Positions 420-38,711 of a stretch of DNA of 64,000 nt are shown one piece after another; the first letter of the stretch is position 1, and the number at the start of each line of letters is the position of its first letter. The notes beneath the pieces are model-generated. The model saw only the letters and a program-made list of their open reading frames with translations, was not told where the DNA came from and did no database searches. The DNA is from Microbacterium memoriense (lineage in GTDB: Bacteria > Actinomycetota > Actinomycetes > Actinomycetales > Microbacteriaceae), in NCBI RefSeq assembly GCF_025398275.1, contig NZ_JAODOR010000007.1, positions 1-64,000 of the forward strand, written 5' to 3'. The position numbers and the translations under genes were made by a program.

Positions 420-445
420 AGGTGATCAGCAGGCCGCCGAGGATC

Positions 446-8217: not shown

Positions 8218-8694
8218 CTAGTGCGAACTGCCGTTGGCGGCAATCGCGGCTTTTGAGGTTCTCCGAAGAAGAACTTGGTCGCCCAGGAGCGGCCAACTCT
8301 CGTCGGAACCGAGGTCAAGTCGAACTGAATCATCCCACGGCAAGGATGAGCAGCCCGAGACCCGCCGCGCCTCGGTGATCCCGAAGCTCGCGAGAGCCCG
8401 CCGATGAGCATGCTCCGCTTGATCGGGGACTTCGCTCGCTCGTGGCGGGCGTCGCCTGGCGGGCAACATGGAGTCGCCGATCACACTGAAGTGCTGTGAC
8501 AGTGTGCTGAGACTCCCCGTCGTGAAGGGATCGGATGTTTCGCCTCGCTTCGCTTGTTCAGCCATCGCGAGGCGAGCGGCGGCGAGCGCGGCGTCTGCGT
8601 CCATCAGTGTGGCGTCCACGCAATCCTCCCGAAGGCTCTTGACGGGGTCGAGCGTAGCCGGGGCAGGTTTCGGAGGTGTGTCGTGCGGTTTCAT
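8218..8694 (-). pseudogene. Decayed, internally deleted priming sugar-phosphate transferase
   Basis: A 158-codon open frame that still resembles the neighbouring transferase at 9421-11073. The start MKPHDTPPKPAPATLD echoes MTHDTSPKPVLDTIAP. From about residue 70 it tracks the last 110 residues: FSVIGDSMLPARRRPPRASEV for FNVIGGSMSLVGPRPPLPSEV, then VSGCSSLPWDDSVRLDL for VSGRSTLSWEDSVRLDL. All membrane segments, the CoA-binding-like domain and most of the catalytic domain (PVLFRQTR, LKFRSM, DELPQ) are gone. Conserved residues in what remains are substituted, including SLVGPRP and KPGITGLWQVSGR. I read it as a fossil of a paralogue left after an internal deletion. It is not an enzyme even though the frame is open. 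Confidence 0.78.
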
Positions 8695-14941: not shown

Positions 14942-16531
14942 TCAATGGGCCGTGTCGCCGGGGGCGACAGCGGCTTTCGCCGTCTTGGCGAGGATGGCCA
15001 GGTCGCCAAGCAGCGACCAGTTCTCGACGTAGGAAAGATCGAGCCTGACGGTTTCCTCCCACGACAGGCTCGACCGCCCGCTGACCTGCCAGAGCCCTGT
15101 GATCCCAGGCTTCACCAAGAACCGGCGGTGCACGTGCGTTGCGTATTGCTCGACCTCGCTCGGCAGCGGCGGGCGAGGGCCCACAAGAGACATCGACCCA
15201 CCAAGCGCGTTGAACAGCTGCGGAAGCTCATCGAGGCTGTACTTGCGCATGATGCGGCCGATGGGAGTGATGCGCGGGTCGTTCTTCATCTTGAACATGA
15301 CCTCGTTGCCCGAGTCAGCGCCCTGCTCCTGCCGCTCGCGTTGCAGGTTCTCGAGCAGCTCTTCGGCGTTCGTCACCATCGAGCGGAACTTCAGCATGGT
15401 GAACTCTTGGCCGCCGCGGCCGATCCGGGTCTGACGGAAGAGCACGGGGCCCTCCGACGACAGGCGAATGCTCATCGCGAGAAACGCGAGCACGGGGCTC
15501 AGCAGCACGATGGCGACAATGCTGACGCAGATGTCCAGCATCCGTTTGACGAAGTCTTGCCCTTTGCTGAAGCGCGGCGTCTCGACATGAATGAGGGGCA
15601 ACCCCGCGACCGGGCGCGTGTGCAACCGGGGGCCGGCGATATCCACAATGCTCGGCGCGAGCACCAGGTGCTGCCGGCCGGCCTGCAGGTTCCACGAGAT
15701 CTGCTTCACCTTGTCAGGCGGCAGTTCGTCGGTACTCGTCACGGCAACCGTGTCGGCACCCGTCAGCGCCATCGCACGTTCGACGGCTTTGACGCTGCCC
15801 ATCATCGGAATCTGGGTGCCGGGCACCACGTTGCCGATCTCTCCGCTCGTCGTGCACGCCCCCACGACGTGGTACCCCGCGCTGGGGTTGCGGCCGAGCT
15901 CGCGCGCGATCTGCGTGACCGACTCGCTCGACCCGACCAGCAGCACCCGTGCCGAGTAGCGTCCGTTGCTCCGCATGGTGACGAGCCAATTGCGCCACAG
16001 CCATCGGGTGAAGAGGAGTACGAGCACACCCGCGGGCAAGCTGATCAGCAAGAAGCCGCGCGCGACGTCGGTCTGCGTGAGAAACGCGATGATCGCGACC
16101 GCACCGAACAACCGCAGGCTCGCATCGACGACGCGCAAATATTCGTCGGGGCCTGAACCGAGCACCCGCACGCTGCGCGAATCACTCCACGACAAGGCCA
16201 GCATCCACGCAATGATCAGGGTCGTTGAAAACACCCAATACGACACCTCAGAGATGCGCGCGTCGGCGCGGATCGCCAGCTGCGCATTGCCGAGACCGAA
16301 CCAGGCGATCTGCGTACCGAAGACGACCCACACGAGAGAGAGGAAGTCACTGATGACCAGACGCGTCTGAAAACGGCGGCGCCAGTCATCAACAGCGGGC
16401 GTGGGGGGAGTCATAAGAAGGGGGCGCGCAGGCGGCACGGCTGGTCCGGTGGAGTCAGCGGGTGCGCTGCGGTGCATATTCGAGTCGTGAGGCGACTGCG
16501 TCGTCGCATCGACCTCAACTTCGGTCGACAC
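14942..16531 (-). CDS. Exopolysaccharide priming sugar-phosphate transferase, second copy
   Basis: 529-residue paralogue of the transferase at 9421-11073 with the same layout: cytoplasmic tail, four to five membrane helices, a Rossmann-like domain (VLLVGSSESVTQIARELGR), a further helix and the catalytic domain. Intact blocks are PVLFRQTRIG, MLKFRSMV, DELPQLFNALGGSMSLVGPRP and KPGITGLWQVSGRSSLSWEE. It loads sugar-1-phosphate on undecaprenyl phosphate at the inner membrane face. It is divergently transcribed from UDP-glucose dehydrogenase, whose product may feed the same polymer. A good promoter with an internal inverted repeat lies 109-136 bp upstream. The start MSTEVEVD at 16531 has AGGAGGATGCGA upstream, and a fossil 5' copy of the gene lies at 12000-12053. 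Confidence 0.93.
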   Translation of the reverse strand: MSTEVEVDATTQSPHDSNMHRSAPADSTGPAVPPARPLLMTPPTPAVDDWRRRFQTRLVISDFLSLVWVVFGTQIAWFGLGNAQLAIRADARISEVSYWVFSTTLIIAWMLALSWSDSRSVRVLGSGPDEYLRVVDASLRLFGAVAIIAFLTQTDVARGFLLISLPAGVLVLLFTRWLWRNWLVTMRSNGRYSARVLLVGSSESVTQIARELGRNPSAGYHVVGACTTSGEIGNVVPGTQIPMMGSVKAVERAMALTGADTVAVTSTDELPPDKVKQISWNLQAGRQHLVLAPSIVDIAGPRLHTRPVAGLPLIHVETPRFSKGQDFVKRMLDICVSIVAIVLLSPVLAFLAMSIRLSSEGPVLFRQTRIGRGGQEFTMLKFRSMVTNAEELLENLQRERQEQGADSGNEVMFKMKNDPRITPIGRIMRKYSLDELPQLFNALGGSMSLVGPRPPLPSEVEQYATHVHRRFLVKPGITGLWQVSGRSSLSWEETVRLDLSYVENWSLLGDLAILAKTAKAAVAPGDTAH

Positions 16532-24677: not shown

Positions 24678-25538
24678 ATGGCCCGTAGGTCAGCCCTCGG
24701 CCGCGCCGCGGGCGCCGCGGCCCTCACGGCGATCGCGGTCGCTGCCGTCGCGCTCGCCGTGCTCGCGATCCAGCACGGACGGCCGCCCGCATCCGCCGCC
24801 ACCGCCCGGCCCGTGCCGACATTCGAGATCGAGTCACCCTCCCCGACGCCCACGCCCACGCCGACGCCTTCCGCACCCACCGCCGACCGGTTTCTGAGCG
24901 TGGGCGCCGCGGCCGCGTGGCGTGCCACCAGCGGCGCCTGCGACGGCACCTCCCCCGTGATCGAATGGTCCGGCGACGACGGCCTCACGTGGACGGATGT
25001 CACCCCGGAGGGGATCGGCGCGGTCCGCTCGCTCACCTCATTCGGTGGCGTGAACGCCACGGCTGTCGTCGACGCGGCGAGCGCGTGCGACACCGTGGCT
25101 CTCAGCAGCTTCACCTCGGGCGCATACTGGCAGACCTACGACAACCTCTTCGCCGCCGCGAGCTACCTCACCGCCGACCCCGGCCAAGTCGTCGTCGCCG
25201 GAGACGCAATTGCGGCGCCGTGCTCGACCCCCCGCAATCTCCGTGTCGACGGCACCATCGCCCTCCTCTGCGAGGATGTCGCGTACGCGCGTTCCGGCAC
25301 GGAGTGGAACCAGCTCGCGACCGGTGTCGTCGCTCTCGCGGTCGACCCCGCCGGCGTCGTCACCGCCGCCCGGACCGATGCGTGCGCCGGCATCGAGCTC
25401 ACCCGCTACGACGGTCAGGCGGGCGGCACGCCCGCCTGTCTCACGGTTGCCGACCCTGCCGCACCCCTCGCGATCGACCTCGATCAGGGTGAGGTCGTCG
25501 CATGGTCCGGGGACGAAGTCGCCCGGCTCAGCCGATAA
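24678..25538 (+). CDS. Secreted or membrane-anchored hypothetical protein behind the kinase
   Basis: 286 residues, unrecognised. A basic start and a helix at about 15-32 (ALTAIAVAAVALAVLAIQHG) form a signal anchor. A Pro/Thr spacer with TPTPTPTPS comes next, then an extracytoplasmic domain rich in small residues and Trp/Cys: WRATSGACDG, IEWSGDDGLTW, four further cysteines. The repeated SGDDGLTWTDVTP-like wording hints at a beta-propeller or sialidase-type repeat, but no motif is complete. The ATG follows the kinase stop after one base (TGAGATG), so translation is coupled and a role in the same exopolysaccharide system is likely. It ends 11 bp inside the convergent response-regulator gene. Confidence 0.78.
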   Translation: MARRSALGRAAGAAALTAIAVAAVALAVLAIQHGRPPASAATARPVPTFEIESPSPTPTPTPTPSAPTADRFLSVGAAAAWRATSGACDGTSPVIEWSGDDGLTWTDVTPEGIGAVRSLTSFGGVNATAVVDAASACDTVALSSFTSGAYWQTYDNLFAAASYLTADPGQVVVAGDAIAAPCSTPRNLRVDGTIALLCEDVAYARSGTEWNQLATGVVALAVDPAGVVTAARTDACAGIELTRYDGQAGGTPACLTVADPAAPLAIDLDQGEVVAWSGDEVARLSR

Positions 25539-25890
25539 GGGCCGCCACCCGCGCACGCAGCTCGCGCGGCGCGAACGGCTTCACGAAGAAATCGTCGGCC
25601 CCGGCGTTCTTGGCTCGTGCGACATCGTCTGCGGATGACCGTGCGGTCAGCATCATGATTCGCGTCGCCGCGAACGCGTCGTCGGCGCGCAACGTCTCGC
25701 AGACCTCGATGCCGTTTTTGACGGGCATCATCCAATCCAGGACCATGACGTCAGGCCGGCGCGCCTGAGCAGCGGCGACACCGGCGCCACCATCGCGGGC
25801 CACATCCACCTCATGCCCCGCCGCGCTGAGCACCGCGGAAACAAGCGCAGCGACATCGGGGTCGTCTTCGACGACCAGTACGTATGCCAC
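25528..25890 (-). CDS. Stand-alone receiver-domain response regulator
   Basis: 120-residue single REC domain with no output domain. The acidic pair is Glu8-Asp9-Asp10, the phosphoacceptor is Asp52 in MVLDWMMP, the switch Thr is at 82 and the conserved Lys at 104 in FFVKPF. It probably acts by protein contact, as CheY or SpoIIA-type shuttle receivers do. The open frame reaches 25932, but the GTG at 25890 has AAGGA five bases upstream and gives the expected VAYVLVVEDD start. It is divergent from the two histidine kinases, the nearest candidate partners, across a 76-bp gap. Confidence 0.9.
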   Translation of the reverse strand: MAYVLVVEDDPDVAALVSAVLSAAGHEVDVARDGGAGVAAAQARRPDVMVLDWMMPVKNGIEVCETLRADDAFAATRIMMLTARSSADDVARAKNAGADDFFVKPFAPRELRARVAALIG

Positions 25891-25966
25891 GGTGATCCTT
25901 CGCGAGCTTGCCGGTTTTCCTTTACCGTACACGCGTCCGAGCGCCGATCGGCGCTAGCGTCGAGTC

Positions 25967-27610
25967 ATGCGCTTCCCCCGGCCGACCCCTCGTGCACTCT
26001 TGCTGTGGGTGGGGGGACCGGCCACCATCTTCGCCCTGAGCGTCATCGGTGTGTGGATGATCGTGCCCCGCTTGCCCATCTCCCTCTGGTGGCCTGCCGC
26101 CGGCGCCGCGGCGTGCTTCGCTCTGTTCACGCCGGCGCGGCAGCGAGCCTTCGCCTACGCGGCGATCTTCGCCGCGATCTCGCTGGCGGGCATCGCCGCC
26201 GGCACGGCGCCGATGACCGCCGTCGCCTACGCCGCCGCCGGTACCGGCGAGACGGTGCTGTTCGTCAGCCTGCTCTTCTTCCGCCGCCCCGACTTCCGTT
26301 TGACGTCCCTGCGCGACGCGACGCGCTTCGCCGCGGCCGCGACGATTGCGGCGAGCGCCTACGGTGTCACCGTCGGCATGGTGAGCGCCCTCGCCGCTGG
26401 CGGAGATATCCTCCTCACAGCGATCATCGCGGCGGCGTCCCACGCCTCGGCAGTCTTGCTGGCGGCCCCGTTTGCACTTCTCCCCCCACGCGAAGAAGAC
26501 GCGGTCGGGTGGTGGGAGGTGGCGATCCAAACCGTCCTGCTGGCCGGTGCTCTGTCCGTCGCCTTCGCCCCCGCCTCGCGCCTGCCGCTGAGCTTTCTCG
26601 TCTTCGTGGTCCTCATCTGGGCCGTCCTACGCTTCCCGCCGATCATCGCCTACGCCCAGTCCCTGATCCTCGGCATCACGGTGGTGATCCTCACCCGTGC
26701 CGGGTACGCGTCGTTCCCCGAAGCGCTCACCCCCACCGAGGTCGCGGTCACGACCGTCACCCTGCTCGGCACCATCGGACTCGTGACAGTTGCCGTTGTC
26801 TCATCACGCTATGACAGCGTCCTCCGCAACCGCACCGCCGTGGCGTCGGCGCGCGCAATCGCGGACGCCGAACGCGAAACGGCCGCCGCCCTCCGCGCCC
26901 GCTATGAGCTCGAGCGACAGCGCGAAGACTTCATCGCGACGACGAGCCATGAGCTGCGGACTCCGGTGACGATCATCGCCGGGTACGCCTCACTGCTCGG
27001 CGACGGCGACCTCGACACCCACTCGCGCGAATGGGTGCAAGCGATCACCCGCAATACGGCACGCCTCGGTCTTCTCCTCAGCAACCTCCTCTCCCTCGCC
27101 CACCCGCAAGACGATCCCGATCCGTGGCCGAGGTCGACGTCCGCATCCGATCTCATCGCCGGAGCGCTCGCCCCCCTCAGCGATGCGATCGGTGCCGCGG
27201 GTGTCTCGATTGCCATGACGGCTCCGGCCGACCTCGCCGTCTGGGCCGACCGTGAAGACGCGAAGCGAATCCTCCGCAGCCTCATCTCCAACGCCGTGAA
27301 CTTCAGTCCGGTGGGCGGTGAGGTCGCGGTCTCGGCCGAGCGGATCGGCAGCGACATCATGTTCTCGGTTCGCGATCAGGGCCCGGGCATGCCCCCCGAG
27401 GTCGCCGAGCACGTGTTCGAACCGTTCTACCGAGGCTCCAACGCCGCGCTCCACTCGACCCCGGGTGTCGGGCTCGGTCTCCCCATCGCGCGCATGCTCG
27501 CGCGCCGCAACCACGGCGAGCTCTCCCTCGTCACCAGCACGGGTGCCGGCGTGCGCGCGACGCTGCTCCTCCGCGCGGCGGGCCCCCTCGCCGTAGAGGG
27601 TCTCACATGA
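25967..27610 (+). CDS. MASE1-like membrane sensor histidine kinase
   Basis: 547 residues. The N-terminal 280 residues hold about eight membrane helices in the manner of MASE1 sensor domains (LPISLWWPAAGAAACFAL). A coiled segment (about 285-320) precedes the HisKA box TTSHELRTP with His328, and a HATPase domain has the N box (SLISNAVNFSP), G1 (VRDQGPGMPP) and G2 (GVGLGLPIA). It autophosphorylates at His328 in response to an unknown membrane signal. There is no RBS; TAGCGT ends six bases before the ATG, so a leaderless transcript is likely. Its stop overlaps the start of the next kinase (ATGA), so the two are co-translated. Confidence 0.92.
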   Translation: MRFPRPTPRALLLWVGGPATIFALSVIGVWMIVPRLPISLWWPAAGAAACFALFTPARQRAFAYAAIFAAISLAGIAAGTAPMTAVAYAAAGTGETVLFVSLLFFRRPDFRLTSLRDATRFAAAATIAASAYGVTVGMVSALAAGGDILLTAIIAAASHASAVLLAAPFALLPPREEDAVGWWEVAIQTVLLAGALSVAFAPASRLPLSFLVFVVLIWAVLRFPPIIAYAQSLILGITVVILTRAGYASFPEALTPTEVAVTTVTLLGTIGLVTVAVVSSRYDSVLRNRTAVASARAIADAERETAAALRARYELERQREDFIATTSHELRTPVTIIAGYASLLGDGDLDTHSREWVQAITRNTARLGLLLSNLLSLAHPQDDPDPWPRSTSASDLIAGALAPLSDAIGAAGVSIAMTAPADLAVWADREDAKRILRSLISNAVNFSPVGGEVAVSAERIGSDIMFSVRDQGPGMPPEVAEHVFEPFYRGSNAALHSTPGVGLGLPIARMLARRNHGELSLVTSTGAGVRATLLLRAAGPLAVEGLT

Positions 27611-29241
27611 GCGTCGACCGGTGGGCCGAGCGCAGTCTTGTGGGGTCGATTGCGCGATCGGTGTGGCAGTGGCAACTCATCCTCACGTTGAGCGTCGTCG
27701 TGATGGGTGCGGTCGTCGCCGTGCTCGACCCGCATCTCTTCGGATCCGTCCCCTTCCTGACGGGGCTGCTGCTCATCGTCGCCATCGGCCTCGCGGCCAT
27801 CGGTCTTGATTGGACTCGCCATCCCACGCGCGTCGCGCTGACCGTCCCGCTCCTCGATACTGCGGCGATCGGTCTTCTTGCCGCGAGCACGCAGTCGTTC
27901 AGTTTTCTCTGGTGCTTCCCGGTCGCCTGGATCGCCACGTACTACGGCACGCCTGCCCTGGTCTCCGCCCTCGGCATCGCGCTCGCCACACAGGTCCCGC
28001 AGTGGTGGAACGGCGGACGCACGGTCGAGACGACTCTGACCCTGCTGATCATCATCGTCTCGCTCGGCTTCCTCGGCGTCACGATCTCGATCGGCACGCG
28101 TCGCACGCGTGCTCTGCGCCACCTCATGCGCCGGCAGTCCCAGCAGCTCGACCGCGCGATCCAGCGGATCGTGGCCGAGGGGCACCGCGCCGACGCCCTC
28201 TTCGATGCGGTCGGCGTCGCGCTCGCGCGCGTCGACGAAGACGGACAACTCCTCGCCGCCAACGCTGCCTATCGCGCGCTGTACTCGTACCCCGGCGACG
28301 ATCTCACCCATCCGTCCTCCGCCGTCGAATACGCCGACTACCTCGGCGACGCTCTCTCCCCCGACCAGACCTCCGTCGCGCGCGCGGCCGCCGGAGCGCG
28401 GGTGACGAACGAACGCATGTGGCTGTACGACGCCGAGGGAGAGTGGCGTGCGCTCAGCCTGTCCATCCGCGAACGCAACATCGACGCGGGAGGCGCCCGC
28501 GGTGCCATCATCGAGATCGTCGACGACAGCGACAGCGTCCGGCAGCAGGCGGAGAGCCGGTCGCAGGCCAGTGCGGTCTCGCACGAGCTGCGCAACCCGC
28601 TGACCGCGATCCTCGGGCATGCCGACCTGCTGCTCGACGACGACACTCTCGATCCCGCCGCCAAAGAGCACGCCACGGTCATCGAGAACGCTGCCGAGCG
28701 GATGCTGGTGCTCATCCGCGGCCTGCTCGGCAACACCCAGCCGTCCGACCGCGCACCGCGCGACTTCGATCTCGGCAGCGTTGCTGCGAGCGCCGTCGCC
28801 GCCTTCTCCCCGACCGCGGCCGCCAAGAACGTGACGGTCGTCAAGGAGATGGGCGCGTCGCTACCGGTGAGTGGCGACGGATTCCGGATGCGTCAGGTCG
28901 TGGACAACCTCATCAGCAACGCCATCAAGTACACGCCCCGCGGGGGCACCGTCGTGGTGTCCACGAGCTCCACCGCCGACACGGCGGAGCTCCGCATCGC
29001 CGATACCGGCATCGGAATCGGGTCGGACGATCTCGCGCGCATCTTCGACCCCTACTTCCGAGCGCAGAGCGCCACCGACGGTCATGTCGGCGGCACGGGA
29101 CTCGGCATGGGGATCGCTCGCGAAATCGTCCGTCGCCATCATGGCGATATCACCGTGACCAGCACGCTCGGACAAGGGACCACGGTCACGGTCACCCTGC
29201 CGGCCGCATCGACGCTCGAAGGAGAAGGTCGTGATCGATAA
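27607..29241 (+). CDS. PAS-containing membrane sensor histidine kinase
   Basis: 544 residues. Five or six N-terminal helices (about 20-162) are followed by a PAS-like domain (about 195-305), a HisKA box VSHELRNP with His326, and a HATPase domain with NLISNAIKYTP, IADTGIGI and GTGLGMGIA. All catalytic boxes are intact. It overlaps the upstream kinase by ATGA and overlaps the next gene by 11 bp, so the three are one operon. Two tandem hybrid-free kinases with a single divergent receiver suggest a branched or heterodimeric sensing arrangement. The signal is unknown. Confidence 0.92.
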   Translation: MSVDRWAERSLVGSIARSVWQWQLILTLSVVVMGAVVAVLDPHLFGSVPFLTGLLLIVAIGLAAIGLDWTRHPTRVALTVPLLDTAAIGLLAASTQSFSFLWCFPVAWIATYYGTPALVSALGIALATQVPQWWNGGRTVETTLTLLIIIVSLGFLGVTISIGTRRTRALRHLMRRQSQQLDRAIQRIVAEGHRADALFDAVGVALARVDEDGQLLAANAAYRALYSYPGDDLTHPSSAVEYADYLGDALSPDQTSVARAAAGARVTNERMWLYDAEGEWRALSLSIRERNIDAGGARGAIIEIVDDSDSVRQQAESRSQASAVSHELRNPLTAILGHADLLLDDDTLDPAAKEHATVIENAAERMLVLIRGLLGNTQPSDRAPRDFDLGSVAASAVAAFSPTAAAKNVTVVKEMGASLPVSGDGFRMRQVVDNLISNAIKYTPRGGTVVVSTSSTADTAELRIADTGIGIGSDDLARIFDPYFRAQSATDGHVGGTGLGMGIAREIVRRHHGDITVTSTLGQGTTVTVTLPAASTLEGEGRDR

Positions 29242-30409
29242 CGACGTGTTCATCGTCTTCGTCGCCCTGGCGACGCTGTGCACCATCATCATCATCGGGT
29301 TGGGGTTCCTGCCTCGGCCCTCCCGCGAGGCCGCGATCTGGTCGGGAGCGTTCGTCGGAGCGATGTGCGCCTCGTACGTCTGGCTCGCCGGCAACGTCCT
29401 GGGCCTCGCTCCCCTCCGCTCCGCCGGCATCGGCATCGTCCTGACGGCGTCGATGTGCATGTGGGTGGGTCTGCGCGCGCGTCGCGCCGCCGAGCGCACC
29501 TACCTCGCCCCGATCCTTCTCCTCGGTGTCGCTTTGACGGCGCTCATCGTCATCTCAGCAGAGACCTCGTGGGCGGAGATCGGCTTCCGCGCGGCGTTGC
29601 TGGTCGCCGCCGCGGTAGCCGCAGCGACGACCAGTGAGCTCTTCCGAATGGGGCCACTGCACCGCGACGAGATCCTCCCGCTCGCGCTCGCCTCGCTCGC
29701 GTTCATCATCGTCACCGCGGCCGGCGTGGTCGACGGCGCCCTCCGCCTCGCGCGCGGTGAATCCCTCGAGATCGACGGGGGTGTCCTCGCGCTCCGCGCC
29801 CTCGGTGTGCTCGGCGGGGCGGTGTACTTCGTCGCGGCGCTCGTGACACTCCTGCTGCTCGTGCGCGAAGAACGTGCCGGCACCCATCACGCGCTGCGTT
29901 TCGACTTCAGCGCGATCGCCCGCGATCGCCTGGCACGCGCGGAGGTCGCCAACGACCTGTGGTGGTCGGTCCTGGAGATCCGCCTCGACGACCCCATCGC
30001 GATCCGCGAGGCGACGAGCACCGCGGCGTACAACCGCGTCGTCGCCCGCTTCGCCAGCGACGTGCTCTCGATGCTTCCCGCCGAAGCCGACATCGACCAG
30101 AAGTCGGCGAGCCGCTACGTCGTCCTCCTTCCCCGGCCCGACGCATCCGTGCGCCCCCTCCTCAGCCGCCTCTTGGCGCGGGTTGCCACTCCCACCGAGG
30201 GGCAGGGGATCGAGACCCGACTGTCGGCGAGCATCGGCTGGGCGCCAGTCGGCCTCCTCAGCTTCTCCCTCGACACGCTCCTGGCCGCCGCCGCCGACGC
30301 TGCCGACACCGCACAACGTGAAGGAGGCGACCGCTGGGAGCGCGCGGACGATCTCGCCTTCCTGGACAACGCGCCGACCGGAAACATCACCGACGCACGC
30401 CCCGCGTAG
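29231..30409 (+). CDS. Membrane protein with degenerate GGDEF-like domain
   Basis: 392 residues. Six or seven helices fill residues 5-215 and a cytoplasmic domain follows. Its C-terminal part, LSASIGWAPV and then DTLLAAAADAADTAQREGGD, resembles the second half of GGDEF domains (SiGvA, then aDxAlYxAKxxGrn). Where the GGDEF signature belongs, the sequence is KSASRYVVLLPRP, so the catalytic and metal residues are absent. Cyclic-di-GMP synthesis is therefore very unlikely, and a scaffold or nucleotide-sensing role is possible. The start overlaps the kinase gene by 11 bp. The GGDEF relation is my inference from pattern only. Confidence 0.7.
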   Translation: MIDNDVFIVFVALATLCTIIIIGLGFLPRPSREAAIWSGAFVGAMCASYVWLAGNVLGLAPLRSAGIGIVLTASMCMWVGLRARRAAERTYLAPILLLGVALTALIVISAETSWAEIGFRAALLVAAAVAAATTSELFRMGPLHRDEILPLALASLAFIIVTAAGVVDGALRLARGESLEIDGGVLALRALGVLGGAVYFVAALVTLLLLVREERAGTHHALRFDFSAIARDRLARAEVANDLWWSVLEIRLDDPIAIREATSTAAYNRVVARFASDVLSMLPAEADIDQKSASRYVVLLPRPDASVRPLLSRLLARVATPTEGQGIETRLSASIGWAPVGLLSFSLDTLLAAAADAADTAQREGGDRWERADDLAFLDNAPTGNITDARPA

Positions 30410-30419
30410 GATCGGGCGG

Positions 30420-32219
30420 GTGACTGCGCCCGTTCTCCCTCCTGCCGCGCGCACCGCCGGGCGCATCTTCGTGATCGCCCTCGGCGCCTGCCTGCTCGCC
30501 GTAATCGCGATCGCCGGATGGATCGGCGTCCGCGGCGCCGAGGCCTACGGCCATGTCCGCGCCGTCCAAGACGGCACGTCGGACGCGATCGCGGCGCTCT
30601 CGGCCGATCCCGCCGCCGCGAGCACCACGCTCGAAGGCCTCGCCGCACACGCCGCCGCCGCCCGCGATCTCACCTCCGATCCCATCTGGCGACTCGGCGA
30701 GAGCGTTCCATGGATCGGCCCGCAGCTGTCCGCCTTCGCCACCGTCGCGGCAGGCCTTGACGCCGTCCTCACCGAGGGCCTCACCCCGATCGCCCGCTCG
30801 GCGGGGGGTCTCTCGCTCGACGCACTGAAGCCGGTGGATGGTCGCATCGACCCCGCACCGCTCGCCACGATCGCCGAACCAGCCCGCGCCGGCGCCGATG
30901 CCGTGGCCCGCTCGTCGGCGCGCATCCACGCGATCGACACGGTTCCCCTCGCGGGTGTCGTGGCGGATGCCGTCCGCGACGCCGACGCACAGTTCGCCGA
31001 GGTCGCCACGGCGACCGACGCGCTCGCCCGCGCCGCGGCGCTCCTCCCCGGCATGCTGGGGCAAGACGGTCCGCGCACCTATCTGGTCATCGTCCAGAAC
31101 AACGCCGAGTGGCGCTCCCTCGGGGGCATTGCCGGCGCGGGTGTGCTGCTGCATACCGAGGATGGGGTCCTCACGCTGTCCGGCACGTTGTCCTCCACGG
31201 ACTTTCCTTCCGGTTTCCCTGACCCGGTCGCGCCCCTCTCCGACGAGATCGTGGCCCTCTTCGACACCAAACCCGCGCGCTACATCCAGAACACCACGCA
31301 GATCCCGGACTTCGCCGTGGGCGCCCCCCTCGCCGCCGAGATGGTTCGGAGTGAGACGGGCCTCACCGTGGATGGAGTCCTCGCCGTCGACCCCGTCGTC
31401 CTCTCATACCTCCTCGACGCGACAGGACCGGTCACCGTACCCACGGGCGACGTCCTGACGGCCGACAACGCCGTGAGCCTTCTTCTCAATGAGGTGTATT
31501 TCCGATACGACAAGCCCGCCGATCAGGATGCGTTCTTCTCTGCGGCGGCCGGCGCCGTCTTCGACGCGCTCGCGCGCGGGACGGCATCGCCGGGCGACCT
31601 CGTCTCGGCACTCGGGCAGGCCGGCGCCGAACGGCGCCTCCTGCTGTGGAGCGCCGACCCTGATGAGCAGCTCATCCTCGCAGACACCACCCTCGCGGGC
31701 CCTTTGCCCACAACCAACGACCAGACCGCGCAGTTCGGCGTGTACCTCAACGAGGGCGGCGGTTCGAAAATGAGCTACTACACGCATCCGAGCGTGCAGC
31801 TCGCGTGGAACACGTGCGCCCCCTCCGAGACGGTCGCCGCTCGCTCCCTCACTCTGACCCTCACCCTCGAGAGCACGGCGCCCGCGGATGCCGCGACCTC
31901 CCTCCCGCCGTACCTCACGGCGGACGGGGCGTTCGGAACAGCCCCCGGAGACTCCGATGTGGTCGGCAACATCTATCTGCCCACTGGCTACGAGCTCACG
32001 GAATCATCGCTCAGCACCGGCGGCGGGTTCGGCGGCGGCATGCACGACGGGCGGCAGGTCCTCACGCTCGGCGTCGTCCTCGCCCCCGGCGCCTCCGCGA
32101 CGGCCACCGTCACCGTGCGCGCCGTGACCGGAGCGGATCACGCGGAAGCGCTGGTCACCCCCACCGCCGACGCGGACCTGGCGACCACCGTGTCCGCCGG
32201 CTGCGGAGCCCTCGGGTAA
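30420..32219 (+). CDS. DUF4012-domain surface protein
   Basis: 599 residues with an N-terminal signal anchor (IFVIALGACLLAVIAIAGWI) and a large extracytoplasmic part that matches DUF4012: RTYLVIVQNNAEWRSLGGI, then DGVLAVDPVVLSYLLDATGP and YLNEGGGSKMSYYT. The family occurs in Gram-positive bacteria, often near surface polysaccharide genes. Its activity is not established, and a link to the LytR-CpsA-Psr superfamily has not been shown here. The long open frame extends back to 29874 through the preceding gene. The GTG at 30420 is the sensible start, with TAGGAT seven bases before it (overlapping the upstream stop codon), the pattern of a leaderless start. Alternatively it is read through from the operon. 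Confidence 0.87.
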   Translation: MTAPVLPPAARTAGRIFVIALGACLLAVIAIAGWIGVRGAEAYGHVRAVQDGTSDAIAALSADPAAASTTLEGLAAHAAAARDLTSDPIWRLGESVPWIGPQLSAFATVAAGLDAVLTEGLTPIARSAGGLSLDALKPVDGRIDPAPLATIAEPARAGADAVARSSARIHAIDTVPLAGVVADAVRDADAQFAEVATATDALARAAALLPGMLGQDGPRTYLVIVQNNAEWRSLGGIAGAGVLLHTEDGVLTLSGTLSSTDFPSGFPDPVAPLSDEIVALFDTKPARYIQNTTQIPDFAVGAPLAAEMVRSETGLTVDGVLAVDPVVLSYLLDATGPVTVPTGDVLTADNAVSLLLNEVYFRYDKPADQDAFFSAAAGAVFDALARGTASPGDLVSALGQAGAERRLLLWSADPDEQLILADTTLAGPLPTTNDQTAQFGVYLNEGGGSKMSYYTHPSVQLAWNTCAPSETVAARSLTLTLTLESTAPADAATSLPPYLTADGAFGTAPGDSDVVGNIYLPTGYELTESSLSTGGGFGGGMHDGRQVLTLGVVLAPGASATATVTVRAVTGADHAEALVTPTADADLATTVSAGCGALG

Positions 32220-32248
32220 GATCAAAGTCTCCCGGGGAAAGGGTGAGC

Positions 32249-32791
32249 ATGCCGCTCCGCTTCCGCGCTGCCATCACGGCCGCGGCGATCATACTGCTGA
32301 CTCTCGGTGCGCCTTTCGCAGCGCAGGCGTCGAGCATCTACCCGCCCGTGGACGCGTGCGAAAGCTCGCAGTCCGCCGCCGCTGCCGGCGCAACCATCAC
32401 GTTCTCGTGCAACGCCGGGACCTTCGGCGCCGACGAGGCGGTCACGGTCACCCTCACGGGAGAGAACGCGGCCTCCGCCCGCTTCGCCCTCGTTCGCCTC
32501 GAGGTGTCGACCTTGAGCGGCGCCTACACGTCGACGTCGAGCGGCGCCCTGGATGCCGTCCGCATCACGCTGCCGAGCAACAGCTCCGGCATCTACAACA
32601 TCGCCGCCGTCTCTGCGACATCGGCCGGCGGCACCTCGAGCGTCTCGGCGCTCGGAGCGGACGGCTTGCCGTCGACCGGCGGCGATAGCTCGCAGCTCCT
32701 CGGTCTGTGGATCGGCGGTGGCGCCGTCGTTCTCGCCGGGGTCGTCATCCTCGTGGCCGTGTGGCTCCGCCGCCGTCGCGACGACGACTGA
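32249..32791 (+). CDS. Small LPXTG cell-wall-anchored protein
   Basis: 180 residues. It has a signal peptide (MPLRFRAAITAAAIILLTLG, cleavage near AQA), a mature part of about 110 residues rich in Ser, Thr and Ala, and a sorting signal LPSTG at 140-144. A hydrophobic helix and RRRRDDD end the protein. It should be linked to peptidoglycan by a housekeeping sortase, although no sortase gene is in the window. The mature domain shares VTVTLTGENAASA with the second LPXTG protein (VTFTLTGENGAGA), so the two are paralogues. The ATG at 32249 follows GGGGAAAGGG; a GTG six bases earlier is also possible. The function is unknown and may be structural. Confidence 0.85.
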   Translation: MPLRFRAAITAAAIILLTLGAPFAAQASSIYPPVDACESSQSAAAAGATITFSCNAGTFGADEAVTVTLTGENAASARFALVRLEVSTLSGAYTSTSSGALDAVRITLPSNSSGIYNIAAVSATSAGGTSSVSALGADGLPSTGGDSSQLLGLWIGGGAVVLAGVVILVAVWLRRRRDDD

Positions 32792-32813
32792 TCCCGCTCG
32801 ATAGAGTGCAGTG

Positions 32814-33839
32814 GTGGCCCATTCCCGCTCTCCCCGGCGCCGACGACGCCCGTCGACACGCACCTGGATCGTCGTCGGGCTCATCGCCGCGGGCATCCTC
32901 GTCGTCTCCGTGCTCGCCGTCGTCGGGTGGGTCGTGACGCGGGGCTTCTACGCCGCCGTGGCGACGCCCCCTGCGCACGGCACGACCGTCATCGCGCCGG
33001 AGCAGTCGAAGGCGACCGTCGCCCTCAAGACGATGGGGATGGATGCCGATGCCGTCACCGCGACGGAGTATCTCGCCGCGCAGCCGACCGCCTACTGGCT
33101 CACCCCCGAGCAAGACCCGATCGGCACCGCCGGCGCGACGGTGACATCCCTCCTTGCCCAGGCGCGCACAGAGAAGCGCACACTGGCCGTGGTCGTCTAC
33201 GGCCTTCCCGAACGCGATTGCGGCAACCATTCTGCGGGCGGCCTCGAAGAGGACGACTATCGCGTGTGGGTGAAGGAGATCGCGGCGGGTATCGCGACCG
33301 GACCCGACGTGCGGACGATCGTCATCCTCGAGCCCGACAGCATCGCCCTCGCCTCCGATTGCGGCGACATCGCTGACCGCGCGCGGACGCTCCAGGCCGC
33401 CGTCGGCTCGCTCGTTGCCCCCCACACCTGGATCTACGTCGACGGCGGTCACAGCCGGTGGCGCAGTGCCGCCGAGATGGCCGACCTCATCCGTCAGATC
33501 GGCGTCATCGACCGCGTGCGGGGGGTTGCTCTCAACGTGTCGAACTATCAGTCCTCCTACGACGAGTTCGCCTTCGCTCACGCCCTCTCCGACGCCCTCG
33601 GGGGCACGCACGCCATCATCGACACATCCCGCAACGGGGCGGCCACCGCAGGCGCCACGTGGTGCAACCCGCGGGGCCAGCGCATCGGCGAACCGGGCGG
33701 GACCTTCGGAGACGAGGTCGTCGACACGAACCTGTGGATCAAGCCCCCGGGAGAGAGCGACGGCACCTGCAACGGCGGCCCGGCAGCCGGCGTGTGGTGG
33801 CCCGATGTCGCCGTCGAGCTCACCCAGGACGTGGGCTGA
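32814..33839 (+). CDS. Glycoside hydrolase family 6 (endoglucanase-like), membrane-anchored
   Basis: About 341 residues: a basic start, one signal-anchor helix (about 18-42) and a GH6 catalytic domain. The family landmarks are VVVYGLPERDCG with the Asp of RDC at about 135, VILEPDSIAL with the catalytic-acid Asp at about 175, YVDGGHSRW, VALNVSNYQS and the C-terminal LWIKPPGESDGTC. GH6 enzymes cleave beta-1,4-glucan with inversion. In actinobacteria a GH6 enzyme also accompanies the CslA glucan synthase, so processing of a self-made glucan is more likely than cellulose digestion. Two GTG codons at 32811 and 32814 compete. I prefer 32814 because TAGAGT ends six bases before it, the leaderless spacing. 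Confidence 0.9.
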   Translation: MAHSRSPRRRRRPSTRTWIVVGLIAAGILVVSVLAVVGWVVTRGFYAAVATPPAHGTTVIAPEQSKATVALKTMGMDADAVTATEYLAAQPTAYWLTPEQDPIGTAGATVTSLLAQARTEKRTLAVVVYGLPERDCGNHSAGGLEEDDYRVWVKEIAAGIATGPDVRTIVILEPDSIALASDCGDIADRARTLQAAVGSLVAPHTWIYVDGGHSRWRSAAEMADLIRQIGVIDRVRGVALNVSNYQSSYDEFAFAHALSDALGGTHAIIDTSRNGAATAGATWCNPRGQRIGEPGGTFGDEVVDTNLWIKPPGESDGTCNGGPAAGVWWPDVAVELTQDVG

Positions 33840-33911
33840 CGCCGCCGTGGCGGCACGCCTGTAGCATGTGACTCACCGACGCCCCTTCCATCCCCCCCGG
33901 AGCACCGTCCT

Positions 33912-34910
33912 ATGACCGATCCCTCGGCTCTGCTGAAGACTGCCGTCATCATTGAGGACGACCCCGACATCCGCCACCTCATCGTCGAGGTCCTCGAGGC
34001 GGCGGGCTTCTCGACCGTGTCGGTGGGCAACGGCATCGACGGGGTGCGCGCGGTGCTCTCCTACCAGCCGCTCATCACGACCCTCGACGTCAATATGCCG
34101 GGAATCGACGGCTTCGAAGCCGCACGCCGCATCCGGGCGCAGAGCGACACGTTCATCATCATGATCACCGGACTCGAAGAAGAGGCCGACGTCGTGATCG
34201 GACTCGGAGCCGGCGCGGACGACTACATCGTCAAGCCGTTTCGCCCGCGCGAGCTGCGCGCGCGCATCGACTCGCTCCTGCGCCGTCCCCGGGCTGGGGC
34301 GAGCGCGGCCCCCGCCATTCCTCGCCAGGAATCCGCCGGACCGTCCTTCCCCGGCGCTCGGCCCGCGGCCCGGCCGGATGCGCCGTCCGCATACCCGCCG
34401 CCCACATGGATGCCACCGGTCGATCCGATGGCCGACATCGACCTGCAGCAGCCCCCCACGCCGGTCTTCGCCGAGAACCCCGGCTACGCGGCGCCGATCG
34501 TCGTCCCCTCCCACGTGGGCCCACAAGACGCTGCTCCGGGCACCGACCTCGCCACCCCGGGCGCCCCCGGCGTGGGACCGGGATGGGTGATCCACCGCGA
34601 CCTCGCCGTCAACCCGGATCAGCGCGCGGTGATCGTCGGGGGCCGCGACCTGCCCCTGACCCGCACCGAGTTCGATCTCCTTGCAACGCTCATGGAATCC
34701 AAGCGTCGTGTGCGCAGCAAGGCGGATCTGACACTCGTCCTCCGCGGCGAGTCCTATGTCACGAGCTACTTCGTCGGCGACGCGGACAAGCGCGCGATCG
34801 AGGCCCACATGACGAACCTGCGACGCAAGCTCGGCGACAACCCGAACAATCCGCGGTACATCGAGACCGTGCGCGGCGTCGGCTACCGGCTGACGGCCGA
34901 AGCGGCCTGA
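33912..34910 (+). CDS. OmpR-type response regulator with a long proline-rich linker
   Basis: 332 residues. The REC domain (about 10-125) has the acidic pair at Glu15-Asp16-Asp17, phosphoacceptor Asp59 in LDVNMPG, and Lys108 in YIVKPF. The DNA-binding winged helix (about 235-330) ends with AHMTNLRRKLGD and TVRGVGYRL. Between them lies a linker of about 110 residues rich in Pro, Ala and Gly, where related proteins have 10-20. It is a transcription factor, probably phosphorylated by one of the kinases 5-8 kb upstream, and may control this surface-polymer locus. It is convergent with the GT2 synthase gene, 47 bp away. Confidence 0.92.
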   Translation: MTDPSALLKTAVIIEDDPDIRHLIVEVLEAAGFSTVSVGNGIDGVRAVLSYQPLITTLDVNMPGIDGFEAARRIRAQSDTFIIMITGLEEEADVVIGLGAGADDYIVKPFRPRELRARIDSLLRRPRAGASAAPAIPRQESAGPSFPGARPAARPDAPSAYPPPTWMPPVDPMADIDLQQPPTPVFAENPGYAAPIVVPSHVGPQDAAPGTDLATPGAPGVGPGWVIHRDLAVNPDQRAVIVGGRDLPLTRTEFDLLATLMESKRRVRSKADLTLVLRGESYVTSYFVGDADKRAIEAHMTNLRRKLGDNPNNPRYIETVRGVGYRLTAEAA

Positions 34911-34957
34911 TCGCGGGTCCCCCAGAAACCCGTATCAGGCCGTCCCGGCCCTTCCGC

Positions 34958-36436
34958 TCAGACGCGGAAGCCCTGATGACGTCGGAACAGCTTGAACGAC
35001 ATCAACACCGTCTGAATCACGGTGACGACGCCGACGACGGGCCACCCCACCCAGAGGATCGCAGACTGAGCCACGGGGCTCAGGAGGTTCCAGATCACGG
35101 CGACGGCGACGGCGACGATCGCGAGCAGGATGAAGGGCACCCAGTGCCCGATGCTCCCGCCGCCCTTTTCCGCCTTGGCCTGCATAGCCCAGTTGTCGAC
35201 CTTCTTGCGCGAGAGGAACCGCGTCCACGAACGCAGGAAGTGACTGATCCGGATCCACATGAACATCTCAGCCGGAATCATGAACACCGCGAAGCCGATA
35301 TCACGCGAATTACTGTTTTTCATCGCCCGCGCGACACGCAGGTTCAAGAGCATCGCGACGACGGGCGGCAGGAGCCACCACGGCGAGAAGACGAACGCGT
35401 TGATCGACAGCGATGCGATCAACAAGGTGAGGAACGCGACCCGCACGAACAGATTCGTGAGCATCGAGAAGTTCTCGAACCACCGCAGCCGCAGGTTCGG
35501 GTGGAACGGCTGGCCCTTCGTGTCACCGCGCTGGCCTGGCCACATGAGCTCGATCGCTCCATAGGTCCATTTGACCTGCTGCGCGTCGTAGCCCTTGAGG
35601 GTCGTCATTCCGCCGACCTCGGCCCGAGCGAACGGGCTGATCTTGGTCAGATAGCCCGCGCTCTTGATCTGCAGAGACAGAAGCGAGTCCTCGACCTCGC
35701 TGTCCTTGACCCACGGCGAGTTCTGGTGATTCGCCTTCATGACATCGCGCAGCGCCGTCGTCGAGAAGATCGAGAATTGCCCACCGAGGACCGCCATGTT
35801 GCGACCGCGAAGCAGGTTCTGCAAGTTGAAGGCCGCGAACTGGGTGCGCTGCCCCGCGATGAGGAACTTGGCGATCGTGCCCTTGATCGGCTGATCGTCG
35901 ATCGTGTAAATCGCGGAGATCCCCCCGATGCGTGAGTCGGAGACGGCTTCGGACTCGAGGTACTCGACGGCGCGACGGTCGGCGGTCGTGTCGCCGTCCA
36001 CGCCGAGCAGGTAGTCGTATCCCTCGACGAGAGAGTAGCCGTAGTTGAGCGCGCCGACCTTCTTGTCGGGGTTCTTGCCGATGTCGTGCACGAAGACCTC
36101 GGTGAACTGCTCGCCGAGCTCCGTGGTGATCTCGTGCGGACCGCTGAATTCGCTCGCGATGCGCACCGTGGCATCCGTCGTGTTGTTGACGACGACGTGA
36201 ATGACGTCGGGCACGCGCGTCTGATCCAGGAGCGACCGCAGCACGTCGCCGATCGACTCTTCCTCGTTGTACGCCGGGACGACGCATCCGATCGTCGATC
36301 GGTGGACGGTCGTGTTCTCCAACACCGACGAGAAATCATCGGCCAGGGGATCCATTCCCGCCGGCGTCAGCGGGTGTTCGTAGGCATCGACCGCAGCCGA
36401 CGGCGCAGGTTGCGCCTGCTCATAGGGAAATGTCAC
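34958..36436 (-). CDS. Processive family 2 glycosyltransferase (glucan or chitin-like synthase)
   Basis: 492-residue membrane synthase. The GT2 domain starts IGCVVPAYNEEESIGDVL and has the D,D,D,QxxRW series: GVDGDT with Asp147/Asp149, GGQFSIFS, VEDSLLSLQI with the catalytic Glu249-Asp250, and QQVKW at 286-290 (Lys in place of the usual Arg). Four C-terminal helices follow. This layout is shared by cellulose, chitin and hyaluronan synthases, which extrude a beta-linked chain. No PilZ domain is present, so cyclic-di-GMP control of the BcsA type is not expected. The GTG at 36436 with GGAGGA upstream is chosen. The frame reaches 36604 but would overlap the lipoprotein gene 28 bp upstream. Confidence 0.88.
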   Translation of the reverse strand: MTFPYEQAQPAPSAAVDAYEHPLTPAGMDPLADDFSSVLENTTVHRSTIGCVVPAYNEEESIGDVLRSLLDQTRVPDVIHVVVNNTTDATVRIASEFSGPHEITTELGEQFTEVFVHDIGKNPDKKVGALNYGYSLVEGYDYLLGVDGDTTADRRAVEYLESEAVSDSRIGGISAIYTIDDQPIKGTIAKFLIAGQRTQFAAFNLQNLLRGRNMAVLGGQFSIFSTTALRDVMKANHQNSPWVKDSEVEDSLLSLQIKSAGYLTKISPFARAEVGGMTTLKGYDAQQVKWTYGAIELMWPGQRGDTKGQPFHPNLRLRWFENFSMLTNLFVRVAFLTLLIASLSINAFVFSPWWLLPPVVAMLLNLRVARAMKNSNSRDIGFAVFMIPAEMFMWIRISHFLRSWTRFLSRKKVDNWAMQAKAEKGGGSIGHWVPFILLAIVAVAVAVIWNLLSPVAQSAILWVGWPVVGVVTVIQTVLMSFKLFRRHQGFRV

Positions 36437-36464
36437 GGTGGTGTCCTCCGCTCTCACGCTCAGA

Positions 36465-37196
36465 CTATTCACTCGCGGTGCTCGGTGAGTAGATCGCAAT
36501 CGGCAGAACCTGGTAGACGGTCTGCGTCGCGAAGCTGTTGTCGTCGTTGGCGCTGCCCTCGACGGCGATCTGCAGCGCGAACTGGAGGGTGATGCCGTAT
36601 GCATCGGCCGGCAGCTGGTGAATGGTCGTCTCGGGAACGAGCAGACCGCCCTGGAAGCTGTTGAGCAAGAGCCCGCGGTCCGAGCGGAGCGTGTCGGTCG
36701 GCACGAGGGTGCGGGGATCTGCCGAGAACTGGAACGGCGACATCATTTGGCCCTGGTTCATCGCCGACTGCGACACCTGGGAGGTGATGCTCACCATCGA
36801 GAGGTAGACGCGGCGCTTTTGGGCGAGGACCGCTTTCTCGTCGACGCGGGAGTCGTAGACATTGACGGCGAAGCCGAAAGCCTTTTCACTGTCGGGCGTC
36901 CACTCCTGCGTGCGCTTGGGATCGGCCGCCCACACATCGATGCGCAGCTCGAGTCCGTCCGCGACCTCGCTCGAGAGCGTGGTGCTGCCGTCGTAGCTGA
37001 AGTCGGAGTCGAACGGCCGCGCGACATCTGACGCGGTCGGGTTCGGGGTGGGTATGGCGATGGTCGCGTTTTGCCCGGCGTTCAGCCCGTTGAACGCTTC
37101 GACGACCTGCGAGCACCCCGTCAGCGAAGCGATGAGTGCCGCGGCAAGGCCGATCGTGGCCAGGAAGCGCGCGCGAGGGCGGGAGATAATTCGCAT
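36465..37196 (-). CDS. Hypothetical lipoprotein upstream of the GT2 synthase
   Basis: 243 residues. A lipoprotein signal with lipobox SLTGC (Cys28) is followed by a soluble domain that I cannot assign to a family. Residues such as RRVYLSMVSITSQVSQSA and LPADAYGITLQFALQI have parallels in the neighbouring lipoprotein (KVYLQKATM, VPADATFVTLQFTYDF), so the two are distant paralogues and probably share a fold. The ATG at 37196 is preferred over the frame start at 37235 because it begins the signal peptide directly. The gap to the synthase is 28 bp, indicating one operon. A role in attaching or guiding the extruded polymer at the cell surface is plausible but not shown. Confidence 0.82.
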   Translation of the reverse strand: MRIISRPRARFLATIGLAAALIASLTGCSQVVEAFNGLNAGQNATIAIPTPNPTASDVARPFDSDFSYDGSTTLSSEVADGLELRIDVWAADPKRTQEWTPDSEKAFGFAVNVYDSRVDEKAVLAQKRRVYLSMVSITSQVSQSAMNQGQMMSPFQFSADPRTLVPTDTLRSDRGLLLNSFQGGLLVPETTIHQLPADAYGITLQFALQIAVEGSANDDNSFATQTVYQVLPIAIYSPSTASE

Positions 37197-37311
37197 GGGG
37201 AGACTTTCGGGAGACGAACCGGGGTTTCGCTCCACGGTACGTGCCTGGTCATCCTGATCGCCCGGACTTCAGCCGATCTCGACGCAGTCTTGCGCTGGCC
37301 TTGAGGTTGGC

Positions 37312-37941
37312 TCAGTCTTCGGAATCCGCGGCACTGCCGGCGATCGCCACCGTGAGCGTGTCGGTCGCGGTCTGCTTCGCGAACTCATTCGAGGTCGGCG
37401 TCGTCTGCACGAGGAAGTCGTAGGTGAACTGGAGCGTCACAAACGTCGCGTCCGCCGGGACCGTGCCCACGTTGAAGGTCTGCGAATAGCTGTAGGGCGC
37501 GAGCACGAGATACCCGGGCGACACGGTCGACTGGTCGATCTGGGTGGCGAGCGGCTCGAAACCCGTCGATCCGTTGGCCGGCACGGCGATCATCGTCGCC
37601 TTCTGCAGATAGACCTTCTGGCCGTCATCCGGGCTGACGGTGGTCACCATCGAGAGGCTGACGGGCTTGACGGCGTCCGCTGTCCAGCGGTCCATACGCA
37701 ATGTGGACCAGTAGGAGATCGTCGCCGAGACGGCGCCCGCCACGACTTCACGCTCGGTCGATCCTCCCGACAGGTCGTTGGAGATCGGTGGGGCGACCGC
37801 GGTCGCCGTTGCCGTGGGAGTCTCCCCGCCGGAGTTCCAGGGTGCGGGGCCGCATCCAGCGAGCAGCGCGACGGACACCGTGGTCCCCGCCAGCGCCCCC
37901 AGCGTCCGGATTCGTCGAGATCGCCGATCATCACGGTGCAC
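37312..37941 (-). CDS. Hypothetical lipoprotein, paralogue of the next gene
   Basis: 209 residues with a clear lipobox LLAGC at Cys30, a Thr/Ala-rich spacer and then a domain of about 150 residues related to that of the following lipoprotein (shared blocks SLSMVTTVS / YLSMVSITS and FVTLQFTYDF / GITLQFALQI). No known domain is recognised. The GTG at 37941 has AGGAGA six bases upstream. TAGACT at 37971-37976 on the minus strand is a likely -10 box, with only a weak -35. It is probably the first gene of the lipoprotein-lipoprotein-synthase operon, with a 115-bp gap before the second gene. Confidence 0.82.
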   Translation of the reverse strand: MHRDDRRSRRIRTLGALAGTTVSVALLAGCGPAPWNSGGETPTATATAVAPPISNDLSGGSTEREVVAGAVSATISYWSTLRMDRWTADAVKPVSLSMVTTVSPDDGQKVYLQKATMIAVPANGSTGFEPLATQIDQSTVSPGYLVLAPYSYSQTFNVGTVPADATFVTLQFTYDFLVQTTPTSNEFAKQTATDTLTVAIAGSAADSED

Positions 37942-38023
37942 TCGGGTCTCCTGTCGTCACGCTCGGAGCGAGTCTAGCGAGATGAACGATGACGAAAGTT
38001 TACATACACGAAATCCTCTCAGC

Positions 38024-38052
38024 TTGCACTCAGCGAGGCCCTCCGCAATACT
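38024..38052 (+). promoter_or_regulatory. Candidate promoter of the second LPXTG gene
   Basis: TTGCAC (38024-38029) and AATACT (38047-38052) are spaced by 17 bp, a plausible vegetative promoter. Transcription would start near 38059 and give a leader of about 110 nt before the ATG at 38172. The region is divergent from the lipoprotein-synthase operon. Confidence 0.5.
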
Positions 38053-38171
38053 CGAAGAGTCTTCATAGACAAACGGAGTTCCCCCCAACCACCGTCGGTC
38101 ACGCCCTCGACGGTGTGTGCGCGCGGTGAGCGACATCCCCCTGCACCACCCGCTCAACGAAAGCAGAAATC

Positions 38172-38711
38172 ATGAAGCACCGTCTGACCAAGGCTGCCGC
38201 CGCTCTGGCCATCGCCACGGCCGCGGTGTTCGCTGCACCCGCCATGGCGAACGCCTACACCCCCAGCGGCCCCGACAGCAGCACCACCACGATCACTCCG
38301 GGTGGCACTGCAAACCTCACGTTCACCGGGTTCGAGCCCGGCGAAAGCGTCACCTTCACGCTCACCGGCGAGAACGGAGCGGGCGCAACGCTCGCGTTCG
38401 TCAAGTTCGCCGTGAGCAGCGCGTCGCTCACCAAGTCGGCGACGGCAGCGGGCGCAGCACCGGTTTCGGTGACGCTCCCGACCAACGCCTCCGGCACCTA
38501 CACGCTCGCTGCATCGGCTGCCAGCGGCAACGCGACGCAGCAGATCGTCGTGGGGTCCGCTGCCGGTGGCGCGGCAACGCTCCCCAGCACCGGATTCGAC
38601 GGCGACGGCCTCCTCGGCGTCTGGATCGGCGGCGGCGCACTCGTCCTCGCCGGCTCGGCTGTAGCCGTGGCTGCGACCGTTCGTCGCAACCGTCAGAACG
38701 TCGCGGCGTAA
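38172..38711 (+). CDS. Small LPXTG cell-wall-anchored protein, second paralogue
   Basis: 179 residues: a signal peptide (MKHRLTKAAAALAIATAAVF, cleavage after MANA), a Thr/Gly/Ala-rich mature region of about 110 residues, LPSTG at 137-141, a hydrophobic helix and a basic end (RRNRQNVAA). It has no catalytic motif. GFEPGESVTFTLTGENGAGA resembles an Ig-like strand pattern and matches the paralogue at 32249. The strong terminator just after it and its own promoter suggest a well-expressed single gene. It may be an abundant wall protein of the polymer layer. No sortase gene is in view. Confidence 0.87.
   Translation: MKHRLTKAAAALAIATAAVFAAPAMANAYTPSGPDSSTTTITPGGTANLTFTGFEPGESVTFTLTGENGAGATLAFVKFAVSSASLTKSATAAGAAPVSVTLPTNASGTYTLAASAASGNATQQIVVGSAAGGAATLPSTGFDGDGLLGVWIGGGALVLAGSAVAVAATVRRNRQNVAA

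Follow-up and report, generated by a model that had tools for sequence, protein, structure and literature searches.

We analyzed a stretch of 64,000 nucleotides of Microbacterium memoriense DNA, hereafter the window (positions 1 to 64,000 of the forward strand of contig NZ_JAODOR010000007.1, NCBI RefSeq assembly GCF_025398275.1, 2.76 Mb in 26 contigs), in which a sequence-only reading had assigned the genes at 25528-38711 to a single candidate surface-polymer system. This analysis revealed, inside the block, a smaller conserved six-gene core made of a family 2 glycosyltransferase (GT2), a membrane-anchored glucanase of glycoside hydrolase family 6 (GH6), a response regulator (RR2), a histidine kinase (HK2), a membrane protein with a degenerate GGDEF domain (pseudo-GGDEF) and one or two related lipoproteins. 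No description of the cassette was found in the open-access literature and it is apparently undescribed. The core genes and a candidate operator are, by coordinates, strand and content:

27607-29241, forward: HK2, membrane histidine kinase with a PAS domain (PF00512, PF02518, PF08448)
29231-30409, forward: pseudo-GGDEF membrane protein, about five predicted transmembrane (TM) segments followed by a GGDEF-like C-terminus
32811-33839, forward: GH6 glucanase with an N-terminal membrane anchor (PF01341, E = 6.8e-57)
33912-34910, forward: RR2, OmpR-type response regulator with a long linker (PF00072 and PF00486)
34958-36457, reverse: GT2 membrane synthase with C-terminal TM helices (PF00535, E = 9.4e-13; PF13641; PF13632)
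36465-37196, reverse: LipA (lipoprotein A), recognized by its lipobox, member of the Lip family
37266-37305, reverse: tandem 11-bp repeats CTCAAGGCCAG CGCAAGACTGC GTCGAGATCGG CTGAAGT, candidate RR2 operator upstream of lipA-GT2
37312-37941, reverse: LipB (lipoprotein B), a single beta-sandwich domain in its AlphaFold2 (AF2) model

The association of these genes in relatives, on which the sequence-only reading had staked its proposal, was borne out for the core. Among 200 Microbacteriaceae genomes, 30 carried the synthase (E below 1e-140) and 25 a close GH6 (over 200 bits); the synthase was present in all 25 of the latter (25/5/0/170 table, Fisher p = 3e-27). Gene neighbourhoods were read in 46 cases (26 from the family sample and 20 from the genus), then in 80 named loci and 15 loci at the level of the class. 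In the 64 full-length named loci, where genes were scored within 10 kb of GT2, GH6 and RR2 were always present (64/64 each), followed by LipB (61/64), pseudo-GGDEF (54/64), HK2 (53/64) and LipA (42/64). Distances between GH6 sequences were correlated with those between the corresponding GT2s (r = 0.87), as were those of LipB (r = 0.79).

The core was found in 13 Microbacteriaceae genera besides Microbacterium, with different flanks and a reshuffled internal order, HK2 being present in most of the other genera read. The common order outside Microbacterium is GH6> RR2> (Hpt-like<) GT2< Lip> pseudo-GGDEF< HK2<, arrowheads giving the direction of each gene. Microbacterium loci contain the same core genes in a changed order, and in the window HK2 and pseudo-GGDEF lie upstream of GH6-RR2 with a DUF4012 gene and an LPXTG gene between them. 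In a second family of the class, GH6-RR2-Lip-GT2 is kept in 10 of 12 loci, with pseudo-GGDEF and HK2 in some, and GH6 is present in 10 of the 15 class-level loci. The spread is patchy: a full-length close synthase occurs in 44 of 99 sampled Microbacterium genomes and in 3 of 396 genomes of a phylum-wide sample, most sampled members of the class and phylum giving no strong synthase match.

The GT2 of the window displays motifs of the processive type (D..DGD..EVED..QQVKW). In 23 aligned GT2s, D95, D154/D156, E256/D257, Q293, Q294, K296 and W297 are invariant and V295 nearly so. The D, DxD, ED and Q(Q/R)xxW motifs of processive GT2s are accompanied by predicted C-terminal TM segments, with a lysine in place of the arginine of QxxRW. 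The Pfam scan of this protein gave GT2 domains alone and no PilZ domain was matched. Its profile matches BcsA weakly (E = 2.8e-5 to 3.8e-5), and its best NCBIfam match, PgaC/IcaA, is far below cut-off. The predicted structure is weak (mean predicted local distance difference test score, pLDDT, of 62) and the alignment behind it is shallow; with this low-confidence model, the best full-length Foldseek matches were hyaluronan synthases. In L151, a Microbacterium locus without GH6, HEVRR stands in place of QQVKW in GT2 and further motif residues are missing too. Three genomes of one other genus (L092-L094) carry distant GT2 homologues (about 30% identity) in a conserved neighbourhood of their own without GH6, possibly a separate system.

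The cassette GH6 belongs to its family by the PF01341 match and by the four catalytic-site aspartates, kept in 48/48 cassette members; its best PDB match is the GH6 cellulase 1uoz (E = 1.9e-49). An N-terminal hydrophobic anchor was found in 43 of the 48. Many Microbacteriaceae carry other GH6 enzymes, and in a tree of 75 GH6s the 48 cassette rows form one group (Shimodaira-Hasegawa-like approximate likelihood ratio, SH-aLRT, of 99) apart from 27 other GH6s of Microbacteriaceae genomes, which include extra copies from three genomes holding both kinds. No second GH6 was found in the genome of the window. No carbohydrate-binding module (CBM) was found in the 20 cassette GH6s scanned; since neither the cassette group nor the other group gave a CBM family match at E 0.001, CBM content does not separate the two groups.

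LipA and LipB are distant relatives (about 20-28% identity on alignment). The LipB model is confident (AF2 mean pLDDT 87) and corresponds to a single beta-sandwich, the nearest folds being arrestin/ApaG-type beta-sandwiches (Z about 10), which carry little functional information.

The intergenic DNA between LipB and GT2 in 16 loci of other genera contains a direct repeat with the consensus CTCAAGATTTGCTCAAGA, whose seed match outscored every one of 50 shuffles in 13 regions and tied with the best of them in the other 3. A position weight matrix (PWM) trained on the other genera was assayed on named loci outside the training set, nearly all from Microbacterium. The best site fell in the intergenic DNA upstream of the core, which represents 3.2% of the sequence scanned, in 58 of 67 loci, versus 1-8 of 67 with column-permuted matrices. 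The 40-bp tandem repeats at 37266-37305, between lipB and lipA, contain the two best sites of the 64-kb window. Their placement, not their score, carries the weight, because the scores (12.8 and 12.6) barely exceed those of the best shuffled windows (up to 12.4). A whole-genome pattern search revealed that box sites are few in each genome and frequently adjacent to the synthase; the box of the window genome itself is too diverged for the pattern used.

The label of degenerate GGDEF given to the protein at 29231-30409 is weak on the window protein (Pfam E = 0.019) and firm for its family: the family profile matches GGDEF structures of the PDB (best E = 1.7e-17), and 24 of 32 members match PF00990. 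SASRY replaces GG[DE]EF in the window protein, the catalytic motif was detected in 0/129 cassette homologues and the RxxD I-site in 0/32 aligned members. Judged from these residues, the domain is dead at both the active site and the I-site across the family. PF00990 at E 0.001 gave no match in the window genome and matched 8 of 14 control genomes, although very diverged cyclases could escape Pfam. In many other genera, the synthase is accompanied by an Hpt-like protein, absent from the window, of about 125 residues. In the twelve loci read, its start usually overlaps the stop of GT2, and 11 of the 12 proteins give a weak Pfam Hpt match; none has the phosphorylatable histidine, leucine occupying the aligned position in 12/12. 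Four Microbacterium loci (L139, L142, L150 and L151) carry, immediately next to GT2, another member of the pseudo-GGDEF family (352-359 aa), either as an extra gene or as a replacement.

The other genes of the block are listed below.

25528-25890, reverse: RR1, stand-alone receiver domain (PF00072, E = 1e-28), genus-level extra
25967-27610, forward: HK1, histidine kinase with a MASE1-like membrane sensor (PF00512, PF02518; MASE1 below cut-off), genus-level extra
30420-32219, forward: DUF4012 protein (PF13196, E = 1.8e-44), genus-level neighbour
32243-32791, forward: LPXTG1, with LPSTG, a TM segment and an arginine-rich tail (sequence and TM prediction), genus-level extra
38172-38711, forward: LPXTG2, paralogue of LPXTG1 with which it clusters (from the sequence), genus-level extra

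Gene calling recovered all the named genes at these positions, and Pfam and NCBIfam identified the kinases, receivers, DUF4012, GH6 and GT2; LPXTG1 and both lipoproteins had no family match in these scans. LPXTG (41/64), DUF4012 (39/64), HK1 (6/64) and RR1 (4/64) genes occur near the synthase within Microbacterium only, and none of them was found again beside the core in the neighbourhoods of 13 other genera. The distances of DUF4012 are weakly correlated with those of GT2 (r = 0.20), and DUF4012 and LPXTG1 probably form a separate unit. The idea of the whole block as one system was therefore rejected, the core being inherited without HK1, RR1, DUF4012 and the LPXTG genes outside the genus; what stands of the initial proposal is a conserved set with synthase, GH6, lipoproteins and one kinase/regulator pair (HK2 and RR2). 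The suggestion that LPXTG proteins tether the chain to the wall is likewise unsupported, since their genes lie outside the conserved core and near the synthase in Microbacterium only.

Elsewhere in the window, the first 303 residues encoded at 13797-14834 match the Wzz/BY-kinase protein at 23162 (87% identity) and the tail resembles that of the UDP-sugar dehydrogenase at 16739; its appearance is that of a fusion produced by recombination or misassembly in a duplicated region (12-15 kb versus 21.6-24.1 kb). Partial copies of a polyprenyl glycosylphosphotransferase, whole at 9421-11073 and 14942-16531, lie at 8218-8694 and 63382-63942, and the latter may be cut by the nearby end of the window. 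The GC content is about 60% over the sugar-polymer genes at 1-8000 versus about 70% at 18-34 kb, and this drop suggests that 1-8000 is an acquired segment for capsule or exopolysaccharide (EPS).

Among the closest known arrangements is that of Streptomyces cslA-glxA-cslZ(-lpmP), where a GT2 gene also lies near a convergent, membrane-associated GH6 without CBM (PMC9040799, PMC11022532). There, deposition of the glycan made by CslA depends on CslZ together with LpmP (PMC9040799), cellulose is synthesized in vitro by CslA-GlxA (PMC11022532), and CslZ hydrolyses peptidoglycan and alpha-chitin besides cellulose (PMC9040799, PMC11022532). Unlike the Csl system, the cassette has QQVKW instead of QxxRW, a two-component pair, a pseudo-GGDEF, lipoproteins and an operator box, and has neither a PilZ match in GT2 nor GlxA in the window. 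The absence of GlxA, already pointed out from the sequence, is true of the block genes; in a genome-wide PF09118 search the window genome gave no match, and neither did the controls. The resemblance to CslA/CslZ holds as an analogy and not as membership. Listeria pssA-E similarly combines GT2 polysaccharide genes with a membrane protein whose GGDEF domain is enzymatically dead, PssE, a receptor of cyclic di-GMP (c-di-GMP) which keeps its I-site (PMC4125290). The cassette differs from it by the loss of the I-site in all aligned members, by a GH6 as hydrolase and by a kinase/regulator pair in the core. Bacillus ydaJKLMN is grouped with it as a similar dead-GGDEF system. As in proteobacterial bcsABZC, a processive GT2 is associated with a dedicated endoglucanase, but the cassette GT2 has no PilZ domain, GH6 takes the place of the BcsZ glucanase, and no BcsB or BcsC homologue was recognized among the core genes. 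Because it resembles CslA and Pss, yet without GlxA in the window, PilZ and I-site, the cassette is set among the synthase-dependent exopolysaccharide systems as a variant.

Taken together, the core probably makes an extracellular beta-glycan in a synthase-dependent manner and is controlled by a two-component switch of its own, the sugar of the product being a prediction. GT2 would polymerize a nucleotide sugar and move the chain through its own membrane helices. The anchored GH6 may work on the outer side of the membrane, where the chain emerges, with either the chain or the wall as substrate; it would trim or free the chain, the role generally given to BcsZ and CslZ for cellulose, and its chemistry would suggest that the polymer is a beta-1,4-glucan or some related beta-1,4-glycan. 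LipA and LipB, membrane-tethered beta-sandwich proteins on the same face, would probably guide or hold the chain. HK2 would sense a signal and phosphorylate RR2, its putative partner, which in turn would bind the 11-bp direct-repeat box in front of the synthase genes. The pseudo-GGDEF protein, with the Hpt-like protein in many other genera, could be a non-catalytic signalling or scaffold part setting synthase activity or HK2 output; a role without c-di-GMP is proposed because the active site and the I-site are lost and no Pfam-detectable GGDEF exists in the genome. More tentatively, it is possible that a family of synthases for extracellular glycans in Actinobacteria does without c-di-GMP control and is governed by a dedicated kinase/regulator pair with dead pseudo-GGDEF and pseudo-Hpt proteins, the pseudo-Hpt gene and the synthase gene being linked in several genera through an overlap of start and stop codons.

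Several points weigh against this interpretation. The GT2 distance correlations may reflect species descent alone. Two Microbacteriaceae loci (L086 and L088) keep a GT2 with intact motifs and no GH6 nearby, so that GH6 is not indispensable and the GT2-GH6 link is not strict, and three further, more diverged GT2s are also without GH6. Product and activity are predictions from the sequence, and export through the channel of GT2 is read from its family since the model is of low confidence. The LipB fold is generic and the fold search gave no sugar-binding match. The pairing of HK2 with RR2 and the binding of RR2 to the box are putative, drawn from the co-occurrence of the genes and from the conservation of the box.

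The best-surviving alternative, which we nevertheless consider unlikely, is that GT2 makes a polymer other than glucan (hyaluronan-, PNAG- or chitin-like) which GH6 does not cleave, and that GH6 opens the peptidoglycan locally for its exit, a function suggested in Streptomyces for CslZ acting with LpmP. The hyaluronan synthases found by Foldseek, the PgaC/IcaA match far below cut-off and the membrane anchor of GH6 are compatible with it, as is the activity of CslZ on peptidoglycan and alpha-chitin (PMC9040799, PMC11022532). However, the GT2 model behind the structural matches is weak, the cassette GH6 is close to beta-1,4-glucanases with all the catalytic aspartates kept, and no lytic polysaccharide monooxygenase was identified in the core, no search for it having been aimed at the whole genome.

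It is improbable that the pseudo-GGDEF protein binds c-di-GMP or another nucleotide at a non-canonical site and activates the synthase, making the cassette a system of the c-di-GMP type. The degenerate receptors of Listeria Pss (PMC4125290) and the effects of c-di-GMP on CslA-GlxA, which has no full PilZ domain (PMC11022532), are precedents for it, but the RxxD I-site is missing in all 32 aligned members and the window genome has no Pfam GGDEF domain, although cyclases too diverged for the model may have escaped it.

We regard as very improbable that the block merely forms the tail of the adjacent capsule/EPS locus (Wzz/BY-kinase and glycosylphosphotransferases, 8-25 kb) with no module of its own. 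The two do abut in the window, and in Microbacterium the synthase has DUF4012 and LPXTG genes as neighbours; yet in other genera the core is flanked differently and those EPS genes are missing around it, an operator box belongs to the core itself, and joint loss of the core and the EPS locus across genomes was not seen. Finally, that GH6 should be an ordinary secreted cellulase for plant matter, lying by chance near an exopolysaccharide locus, is hardly credible: its family is one of cellulases and other GH6s are common in Microbacteriaceae, but the cassette enzymes are membrane-anchored and stand beside GT2 in 64/64 loci, and this candidate is disfavoured by their separate tree group and by the single GH6 of the window genome.

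If the beta-glycan interpretation is true, a widespread and testable surface-glycan system would be added for a large group of Actinobacteria, in which a GGDEF-type protein has apparently been retained for a role beyond making c-di-GMP or binding it at known sites, and the operator sequence would offer a ready handle for finding the signal that switches the system on.

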